This document shows, in pieces, positions 7,958 through 50,384 of a stretch of 64,000 bases of DNA. The position numbers and the translations under genes are program-made. The stretch is from Elusimicrobiota bacterium (GTDB taxonomy: Bacteria > Elusimicrobiota > Elusimicrobia > UBA1565 > UBA9628): contig JACPFR010000014.1 in the NCBI GenBank assembly GCA_016182905.1, positions 1 to 64,000 on the forward strand, in the 5' to 3' direction. Each line of letters opens with the position of its first letter. The first letter of the stretch is position 1. A model generated the notes under the pieces. The model did no database searches, was not told where the DNA came from, and saw only the letters and a program-made list of their open reading frames with translations.

Positions 7958-7966
7958 ACGGCTGAA

Positions 7967-8060
7967 CCACAAAGACACTAAGGCACAAAGAGAAGAGGGT
8001 TAACGGCGAACATTTGCCGTTAACCCTCTTCCGTTTCTTTGTGTCTTAGTGTCTTTGTGG
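7967..8060. repeat. Long inverted repeat, CCACAAAGACAC family, copy 1
   Basis: Arm 7967-8007 pairs with 8016-8060 around an 8-nt loop. The outer part consists of CACAAAGACACTAAG-type repeats and the inner part is GAGGGTTAACGGC with its complement. A weaker extension (CTGAACGG and complement) reaches 7953-8075 and includes the upstream stop codon. It lies between convergent genes and probably works as a bidirectional terminator. A second copy is at 50285-50384. Confidence 0.85.
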
Positions 8061-8084
8061 TTTTTTCCGTTCAGCTGTCCGCCG

Positions 8085-10760
8085 TCAGACGCCCTTGCTG
8101 ACCTTCTCGAGCGTGAGCCAGCGGTTGGTGCCCGCGAACTTCTGGTGCATGCGGGACCGGGGCTCGCCGTTCGGCTGGTCGATCTCGGTGAGCTGAAGGT
8201 CCGCCAGCGCGTCGATGCCGCGCTCGCGGAAGCCCCGCAGCGAGTTCTCGAGCGCCATCCCGACCGTGCGGAAGGCGAGCAAGGTCGAGAACTGGAGCGT
8301 GAAGCCCATCTTGCCCAGGACCTCGTTGGTGATCAAGGTGCCGTCCTTCTTCGCCTTGCCCCAATGCAGCGAGGGCGAGAGGTTGAAGCCGAGCATCTGG
8401 TTCGGGTAGTACTTGTGCACGCCCTCGGCGAACTCCTGGGGCCCCTCAAGGTCGGTGTTGTTGAACTCGGGCCAGATCACGTCGACGCCGAGCGAGGCGG
8501 CCTCGAGCGCGCGGTCGATCGCGTGCTGGACGCTGCCGGTGCGGCCGCCGGGGACGGCGCCGTCGACCGCGTCGGTGCGGGCGATGACGACGAGGTTCGT
8601 CCCCGTGGCCTGCGCCGCGGCCTTCACTGCGATGAGCTTCTCGATCCACTTGTTGGTCGGGACGAGGACCTTCTCGCGCTTGACGCCGTGGTGCGCGACG
8701 ATGTGGCCGCAGGTGCGCTCCGCCGGGTCCTGGTCCTCGAGATGGACGCCGGCGACGCCGGATCTGATGAGCTCGCGCGTGAGAGTGAACGTCTGGGTCG
8801 GGCCGCCGAACCCGGCCTCGATGTCGGCGAATATGGGAGGCGTGTTGAGGACCAGGCCGCCGTCGTCGTAGAAGTGGCGGTCGCGGGTGCCCTCGATGCC
8901 GCGCACGAGCTCGCGCGCCAGGTCGACCATCTGGTGCGACGGGTAGATGCCGATGTCGGGGTACATGTTGTGCGCGACGGCCAGCTGCCAGCCGCTGGCG
9001 TAGATCGCCTCGAAGCCGAGGTCGGTCAGCATCGACGCGGTCATCGCGTCGTAGGCGCCGGCGGTATGCAGGAAGGACTTCGACGGGTTCGTGAGGCGGT
9101 GGGCGAACTTCTCATGGAGCAGGGCGCGGAGCTTGTCGGAGGGGTGGACCTTCTCGTGGGGCGCGTACATCTTGGCGAATTCGGCTTGGGGATACTTCCA
9201 GGACTTTATGCCCTCGGGCAGGGGGGCGACTGCTTCCTTGATCATTTGCTGGCTCCATTCGCTGGCTCTTTGGTATTTATCCGCCGTGGCGGATTCCGGA
9301 TTCGCGGCCAAGATCTTGGTCAGCTCCTCGCCGAACCAGCGCTCGACGAGCGCCGCCGTCACCTTCACGCCCTCGTCGGTGACGACGGCGTGGCGCACGC
9401 GCTGGGCGATCATCAGGCGATAGATGCGGTCGGTCGCCAGGTCCTCCATGAAGTTGCCGATCAGGGCGCCGGTCCTGTCGTAGCCCTTGATCATGCGCGC
9501 GCCGAGCCCGGAGAGGACGCCGAAGCGGTACTCGATGCAGGTGCGGATCGCGTCGCGCGTGCCGGCGACGGTGACCGCCCCGACGCCGGCGGGCGAAGGC
9601 GTCAGGTCCGGCCGCGTCGCGGCGGCGTGCGTCACGCCGAGCTGGTTCGGGGCCGGGAACTGGGAGATGGCGCCCTCATGCTGGTCCGGATGGCCGGTCC
9701 AGGCGCCGTCGAAGCCGATGGAGGCCTCGTTCTTCTTGTCGGCGGCCAGGCGCTCGAGCGCCCGGGCGTTGACCGCGGCGTCGGCGCGGTCCGGGAACAG
9801 GGCGCTCATGCCGCCGATCGCCAGCGCCCCGCGCCGATGGCAGGCGTCGACGAGGCGCTTCCTGAGGTTCTGGAAGAAAGGGACGGCGTGCGGTATCGTG
9901 TTCCGGTCGGGCAGGATCCACGCCGGGTCGGCGAGCTTGAAGTGCAGCAGGCTCGCCATGTAGTCCCAGCGTCCGAGGTTGAGGCCGATCGCGTGGCGCC
10001 GCGCCGCGAACAGGATCTCCTCGACCTGGTACGCCGCCGGGAGGGACTCGATCAGGAACATGATCCGGGTCGTCCCGACGGGGACGCCGATCGCCGTCTC
10101 CATCTCCGCGATGACGTCCGAGAACCAGGCGGCTTCCTCGAACGACTCCGTCTTGGGAATGTAGAAGCAGAGCTTCGCCTGCAGGGCGGCGTCTTCCGAC
10201 GCCGCCCGGCGGCGCTGATCCGCCGTCCCGAAGAAGACGGCCGCGAGGTCGAACAGGGACCCGGAGACCGTCTCGCCGGGGAGCGCGTTGACCTCGTCGA
10301 GGTGGAGGCCGCGCGGCCGGTAGAACATGACCTGCGCCGACGGCTTGATCGTCGCGCCGTTGAAGGAGAGCCTGCCCTGGATCGCCGCCACCGTGTTGCG
10401 GTGCGCGGCCCGCACGTTCGCCCAATCCGTCGTGATCGAGTCCTCTCCGTCGGGCATGCAGCCGGGGTCCTTCGTGTTGCACATCGCGACGAGGAGCTTG
10501 GCGTTGTCGGCGGGCCCGGTGATCTGGTTGCGCTGGTCGCGCGCCCAGTCGGGGATGGTCAGACGCCACGCTCCGGAGGTCGCCTCGGAGTCGGGAAGGT
10601 AGCCCGGGGCGATCCCGGCGTGCGCGTCCGCGAGGGCGCGCCGCCGCGCCGCGAGCAAGGTCCGGCGGCGAGGCTCGAAGGTCCGGTGCAGCGGACGGAA
10701 GAATTCCAAGAGCTCCGGGGAGGGCGCGTCCTGGATCGGGGTCTCCATGATGTCTGTCAT
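8085..10760 (-). CDS. Malate synthase-isocitrate lyase fusion (bifunctional glyoxylate cycle enzyme)
   Basis: One 891-residue frame holds both glyoxylate-bypass enzymes. Residues 1-515 are malate synthase A: RPRGLHLDE (catalytic Arg about 150), the signature HAIGLNLGRWDYM (about 256-268) and NFMEDLAT with the catalytic Asp at about 440. Residues about 516-891 are isocitrate lyase: AIYASGWQLA, ADIEAGFGG, the active-site CGH at 684-686 (RTCGH here, where KKCGH is usual), ARTDAVDG and FNLSPSLHW. The lyase half is about 376 residues, somewhat shorter than typical stand-alone enzymes. No stop or frameshift lies at the junction. Together the two activities turn isocitrate plus acetyl-CoA into succinate and malate. 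Confidence 0.92.
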   Translation of the reverse strand: MTDIMETPIQDAPSPELLEFFRPLHRTFEPRRRTLLAARRRALADAHAGIAPGYLPDSEATSGAWRLTIPDWARDQRNQITGPADNAKLLVAMCNTKDPGCMPDGEDSITTDWANVRAAHRNTVAAIQGRLSFNGATIKPSAQVMFYRPRGLHLDEVNALPGETVSGSLFDLAAVFFGTADQRRRAASEDAALQAKLCFYIPKTESFEEAAWFSDVIAEMETAIGVPVGTTRIMFLIESLPAAYQVEEILFAARRHAIGLNLGRWDYMASLLHFKLADPAWILPDRNTIPHAVPFFQNLRKRLVDACHRRGALAIGGMSALFPDRADAAVNARALERLAADKKNEASIGFDGAWTGHPDQHEGAISQFPAPNQLGVTHAAATRPDLTPSPAGVGAVTVAGTRDAIRTCIEYRFGVLSGLGARMIKGYDRTGALIGNFMEDLATDRIYRLMIAQRVRHAVVTDEGVKVTAALVERWFGEELTKILAANPESATADKYQRASEWSQQMIKEAVAPLPEGIKSWKYPQAEFAKMYAPHEKVHPSDKLRALLHEKFAHRLTNPSKSFLHTAGAYDAMTASMLTDLGFEAIYASGWQLAVAHNMYPDIGIYPSHQMVDLARELVRGIEGTRDRHFYDDGGLVLNTPPIFADIEAGFGGPTQTFTLTRELIRSGVAGVHLEDQDPAERTCGHIVAHHGVKREKVLVPTNKWIEKLIAVKAAAQATGTNLVVIARTDAVDGAVPGGRTGSVQHAIDRALEAASLGVDVIWPEFNNTDLEGPQEFAEGVHKYYPNQMLGFNLSPSLHWGKAKKDGTLITNEVLGKMGFTLQFSTLLAFRTVGMALENSLRGFRERGIDALADLQLTEIDQPNGEPRSRMHQKFAGTNRWLTLEKVSKGV

Positions 10761-50284: not shown

Positions 50285-50384
50285 CCACAAAGACACAAAG
50301 ACACAAAGAACGAAAAGAATGGTAACGGCAACGCGCGTTGCTGTTAACCCTTCCGCCGTTCCTGGTGTCTTGGTGTCTTTGTGG
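50285..50384. repeat. Inverted repeat, CCACAAAGACAC family, copy 2
   Basis: A 100-bp imperfect inverted repeat whose outer arms begin CCACAAAGACACAAAG and end CTTTGTGG, with a GTTAAC-containing inner hairpin. The arms match those at 7967-8060. It lies between ptsH and ptsI, two genes on the same strand, so if it terminates transcription it would separate EI from HPr. Confidence 0.85.

Follow-up and report, generated by a model that had tools for sequence, protein, structure and literature searches.

A two-domain gene on an Elusimicrobiota contig

The window analysed here, a 64,000-nucleotide stretch of an Elusimicrobiota genome (G000), carries a minus-strand gene at positions 8085..10760 in which malate synthase (MS) and isocitrate lyase (ICL) share a single ORF of 891 aa. 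The frame opens with an ATG at 10760, extends over 891 codons without an internal stop and closes with the stop codon at 8085-8087. The Pfam domains MS_N, MS_TIM-barrel and MS_C were identified on residues 16-508 and Pfam ICL on residues 741-889 and one earlier stretch, all exceeding their gathering scores. The protein can be divided into a malate synthase A-type domain (residues 15-508; 9237..10718, minus strand), which resembles E. coli malate synthase A (MSA; 3cuz and 3cv2) in sequence and fold, an inter-domain linker (residues ~509-521; 9198..9236, minus strand) and a divergent, short ICL domain (residues ~522-891; 8088..9197, minus strand). This order, MS then ICL within one ORF, is that of the bifunctional enzyme of Euglena. 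The first-pass annotation had also described an MS-first fusion in which most catalytic motifs are kept. This description holds: the motifs RPRGLHLDE, GLNLGRWDY and NFMED are present in the MS part and CGH, SGWQ and FNLSPS in the ICL part, and seven other genomes contain the fusion intact.

A single-chain AlphaFold2 model contains two confident barrels (mean pLDDT 82.9, with the barrels mostly at about 80-98). The pTM of the model is 0.60, the linker is disordered (pLDDT < 50 at residues 515-534) and the C-terminal end (863-891) is poorly modelled. When the model was compared to known folds, residues 1-532 matched malate synthase A (3cv2, Z 46.7 over 491 residues), while residues 538-871 matched ICL structures with Z-scores of about 35 (6lrp, 35.0; 6c4a, 34.9).

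The gene apparently stands alone: one neighbour converges on it and the other is transcribed away from it. Between the convergent genes, 3' of the fusion stop, lies a long inverted repeat (7964..8063, without assigned strand). It is near-perfect, its arms contain CCACAAAGACACTAAGGCACAAAGA, and it folds at -78.9 kcal/mol (z -14.35). This terminator-like site is possibly a two-way transcription terminator or a palindromic repeat element, and a related single copy is found at 50285-50309.

In the MS domain, four catalytic positions (R148, E238, D266 and D440; codons inside 9441..10319, minus strand) are retained in the alignment with E. coli MSA (3cuz). We take these to correspond to R166, E250, D278 and D447 of that enzyme, which are the catalytic arginine, the Mg-binding glutamate and aspartate, and the aspartate that acts as base. 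Because the domain scored below the cut-off of the NCBIfam equivalog TIGR01344 (322.4 vs 594.5 bits), we filed it as a putative MSA-like domain rather than as a malate synthase A equivalog. In the phylogeny it sits in a second MSA clade that is common to the Elusimicrobiota fusion and Acidobacteriota.

An isocitrate lyase of a short subfamily

The first-pass annotation had called the lyase part short, and with about 370 residues compared with about 430 in canonical ICL it indeed is. It scored 145.3 bits against Pfam PF00463 (gathering cut-off 26), and fell under the cut-offs of canonical AceA (NF011645, 198.7 vs 562; TIGR01346, 181 vs 275.9) and of the methylisocitrate lyase PrpB (TIGR02317, 90.7 vs 354.4 bits). 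As a guide to the active site we used the pocket of M. tuberculosis ICL, which we take to comprise S91 G92 W93, D108, D153, H180, R228, W283, E285, N313, S315, S317, F345 and T347. All isocitrate pocket residues of solved ICLs are retained with the exception of the two lysines of the KKCGH signature. The retained residues are SGWQ, D602, D646, E648, H673, E675, C684/H686, R728, W763, E765, N793, S795, S797, F824 and T826. By sequence and alignment, the catalytic loop (R682-T683-C684-G685-H686; 8703..8717, minus strand) reads RTCGH instead of KKCGH, so that the cysteine, glycine and histidine are kept.

The domain belongs to a short ICL subfamily from which two parts of canonical ICL are absent, the middle 'LLTSD..ERTAEGFF' segment and the C-terminal tail. 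As the canonical GSTEE..F tail has no counterpart in the fused ICL, the C-terminal lid is missing. In M. tuberculosis ICL, this lid consists of residues 411-428 in the C-terminal tail (PMC5430663). RTCGH was found in 15 of the 15 catalytically intact members of the subfamily, both fused and unfused and from two phyla. Since the loop is common to all of these members, including the unfused ones, it appears to be older than the fusion, and RTCGH, the missing segment and the missing tail are subfamily traits that would predate it. Given this invariance, the earlier suggestion that RTCGH may alter activity is not supported as a property of the fusion. Decay of the loop following the fusion was likewise considered and rejected, as the motif is subfamily-wide and includes the Acidobacteriota copies.

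A search for the short ICL subfamily in two further phyla (247 and 251 genomes), run without a positive control, yielded no matches at E <= 1e-60. Matches at or above 60% identity were also absent from a plasmid collection, where the best matches were canonical separate genes only. In some Acidobacteriota and one Chloroflexota genome (loci L063, L073, L074, L078 and L028), MS adjoins another ICL/PEP-mutase-like protein with the motifs KRCGH and MDGGYGN.

Distribution of the fusion and its neighbours

We determined how widespread the fusion is in 44 genomes from 12 genera, which represent the GTDB family of the window. Eight of these, from five genera, contain an intact fusion (the window genome G000 and G001, G009, G016, G020, G021, G025 and G029). 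The fusion is broken in three others, being frameshifted in the assemblies of G006 and G011 and having lost most of MS in frame in G007. One genome (G024) retains a C-terminal remnant only, and two of the same genus (G010 and G017) carry a canonical unfused pair instead. A search for a second MS or ICL in the window genome (97% complete) returned no other matches to either half of the gene. Among the intact fusions, dN/dS relative to the window gene was 0.15-0.23 for MS and 0.05-0.20 for ICL, and both domains are under purifying selection. Close relatives share a conserved linker, yet its length and sequence vary across the fusions.

In G007 (loci L010/L173, L117 and L174), the fused gene lost MS residues about 129-461, and this genome also holds an ICL paralogue that is degenerate and lacks the CGH loop, along with a canonical-type MS and ICL pair encoded separately. 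The remnant in G024 (contig 28, 3283-3489) consists of 70 residues and adjoins aconitase, a trace of gene loss. Standalone ICLs were found in G036 (L092), G011 (L108) and G007 (L121), each directly 3' of the apparent end of a similar gene that is beta-barrel-like by eye.

The glyoxylate shunt comprises two enzymes and serves growth on acetate or fats, and aconitase makes isocitrate. In G020, an aconitase gene is divergent from the fusion with 58 bp between the start codons. Aconitase is also divergent near the fusion in G021 and G025, with a metallo-beta-lactamase-like gene (named by eye) in between. In the window genome, aconitase is located on another contig and citrate synthase is also found elsewhere. 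Because aconitase adjoins the fusion in three genomes, these neighbourhoods support a predicted glyoxylate-shunt role. The citrate synthase of the window genome (contig 10, 19945-20844) matches only family positions 1-291 of 357 in one piece, possibly reflecting a frameshift or divergence.

Unfused relatives in Acidobacteriota

Two Acidobacteriota genomes (G405 and G450) encode a related MS (about 69-70% identical) and ICL (71-72%) as separate neighbouring genes. In G450 the MS stop and the ICL start are 22 bp apart, and in G405 about 35 bp. This pair shares the MS-then-ICL order, RTCGH and about 70% identity in both domains with the fusion, but consists of two adjacent genes in different frames. 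Operons of canonical AceB and AceA, among them those of G010 and G017, share pathway and gene order with the fusion, whereas their genes are separate and only 35-38% identical. In the Elusimicrobiota fusions, a variable linker replaces the end of MS after '..SxxMI' as well as the ICL leader, and runs into the conserved '..W.YP.A.FAKMYAP'. A sigma-54-type activator gene, recognised by eye from its AAA+ motifs, is located just upstream of the unfused pair on the same strand (L123 and L124 in G405 and G450).

In the MS tree, all fusions of this lineage group together as one clade (99/97), with the Acidobacteriota MS next to it (82/94). In the ICL tree, the fused, Acidobacteriota and standalone Elusimicrobiota ICLs together form one clade (100/100), and the branch from this short ICL clade to canonical AceA is very long, at about 5 changes per site. 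The standalone ICLs of G036 and G011 may sit inside the fused ICL group. An AU test of the fused ICLs as a single clade gave a p of 0.34, which leaves room for a later split or for a second fusion in their history. Considering that two Acidobacteriota genomes hold MS and ICL as separate neighbouring genes, the fused gene would most simply have arisen once in the family from an MS-ICL operon like theirs, a direction that we infer on an unrooted tree.

Discussion

The window gene very probably encodes a bifunctional glyoxylate-shunt enzyme that was fused, most likely once, in one Elusimicrobiota family from an MS-ICL operon, judging both activities and the direction from sequence. From isocitrate, the C-terminal lyase domain would release succinate and glyoxylate; the N-terminal MS domain would then join glyoxylate to acetyl-CoA to give malate, and the fused protein would replace separate AceA and AceB. 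Two adjacent operon genes, MS then ICL as still found in some Acidobacteriota, would have been joined when a short variable linker took the place of everything from the final few MS residues and their stop codon, through the short spacer, to the ICL leader. The benefit would likely be matched expression of both enzymes, perhaps with a shorter path for the reactive glyoxylate. We counted several observations against a bifunctional enzyme, namely the sub-equivalog scores, RT in place of KK, the missing lid, the loss of MS in G007, the frameshifts in G006 and G011, and the location of aconitase on another contig in the window genome.

Some of these same observations would fit a lyase domain that acts on another 2-hydroxy acid such as methylisocitrate, or that is regulatory or a scaffold, leaving MS alone active: RTCGH for KKCGH, the missing lid, the branch to canonical ICL of roughly 5 changes per site and the scores under curated ICL cut-offs. 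However, the catalytic cysteine and histidine, and almost all of the isocitrate pocket, do not vary among the intact members, and methylisocitrate lyase models score even lower (prpB, 91 vs a cut-off of 354). Moreover, malate synthase accompanies the ICL in two phyla, aconitase does so in three genomes, and the dN/dS of the ICL is lower than or similar to that of the MS part, so we consider a non-ICL function quite unlikely. That the fusion is an artefact, be it a missed stop, a frameshift or two genes read as one, is hardly credible. The assemblies of G006 and G011 do contain frameshifts, but the reading frame passes from one domain to the other without a stop, and the linker has been conserved in closely related genomes. 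At the junction, a missed stop or frameshift, which the first-pass annotation had named as a concern, was looked for and rejected; an assembly error there is excluded by the intact single-ORF copies in seven other, separately assembled genomes.

Channelling, with glyoxylate handed directly between both sites of the oligomer, seems unlikely to us. It would suit consecutive enzymes with a common reactive intermediate, independent fusions recur in the same order, and ICL/MS has been placed among fusions around unstable metabolites (PMC4921024). On the other hand, the linker is variable and predicted to be disordered, the pTM of 0.60 of the single-chain model leaves the domain arrangement unfixed, and a fusion by itself need not channel (PMC4921024). 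It is very improbable that the short, lidless RTCGH lyase is closed by the neighbouring MS domain or controlled by MS-bound acetyl-CoA, which would result in channelling or in an acetyl-CoA-gated lyase. The reading that we prefer remains that of a bifunctional shunt enzyme derived from an operon.

Comparison with known fusions

Kondrashov et al. 2006 (PMC1630690) reported fused forms of the two enzymes in nematodes, where ICL comes first, in Euglena, where MS does, and in Anaeromyxobacter dehalogenans; they remarked that, for nematodes, no bacterial source of a fused gene had so far come to light. MS/ICL has further been reported in Euglena, Acanthamoeba, three chrysophytes and one kinetoplastid (PMC8219788), and a bacterial ICL/MS fusion, fig|404589 from Anaeromyxobacter sp. 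Fw109-5, is listed in PMC4921024. As protist, nematode and Anaeromyxobacter fusions are thus published, the architecture is already known and the Elusimicrobiota fusion is an independently evolved variant. What is new is the lineage, Elusimicrobiota, together with an ICL subfamily of unusual type and an operon representing the state before fusion; our literature search found no paper on an MS-ICL fusion in Elusimicrobiota and none relevant on Elusimicrobia glyoxylate metabolism.

The genome search reads through stops, and most of the ~1000-aa 'open frames' that resembled fusions were rejected. True MS-first fusions were found in three of the 20 Myxococcota loci with MS and ICL in one read-through frame (G649, G620 and G687) and in none of the six Acidobacteriota loci checked. 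The first-pass statement that bacterial MS and ICL are almost always separate applies to most sampled bacteria, but not to these three or to the published Anaeromyxobacter fusions. The Anaeromyxobacter ICL/MS is, like the window gene, a bacterial fusion; among the Myxococcota fusions, the MS-first order is established for G649, G620 and G687. Like the window gene, these three are bacterial and MS-first; unlike it, they consist of canonical AceB and AceA with KKCGH, which are about 61-63% and 66% identical to the Elusimicrobiota canonical proteins. Those of G649 and G620 (L146 and L147) also differ in carrying an extra C-terminal hemerythrin domain, and so represent MS-ICL-hemerythrin triple fusions (Hemerythrin E 7e-6 and 8e-7). 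Because neither tree unites the Myxococcota fusions in a single clade (AU p 0.018 for ICL and 0.017 for MS), MS-first fusion has arisen at least three times in the sampled genomes, including the Elusimicrobiota one. As fusion has recurred in the same order, the advantage long assumed for it, be it co-expression or glyoxylate channelling, can be tested by comparing the fused Elusimicrobiota enzyme with the unfused Acidobacteriota enzymes as a matched pair. The window gene also draws attention to an ICL subfamily with scores under current annotation cut-offs.

The Euglena gracilis MS/ICL combines the same enzymes, MS first, in one polypeptide, a likeness by published description, and differs in being eukaryotic and, in Euglena, mitochondrial. 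In the C. elegans/nematode ICL-MS both enzymes are likewise in a single chain, but the lyase comes first and the ICL is of alpha-proteobacterial type (PMC1630690). ICL does not precede MS in the window gene, so the order is opposite to that of nematodes, as the first-pass annotation had stated. The Elusimicrobiota gene represents one more independent glyoxylate-shunt fusion. In contrast to those of nematodes and Euglena, it has a close unfused relative, which makes the pre-fusion operon and the fused gene directly comparable.
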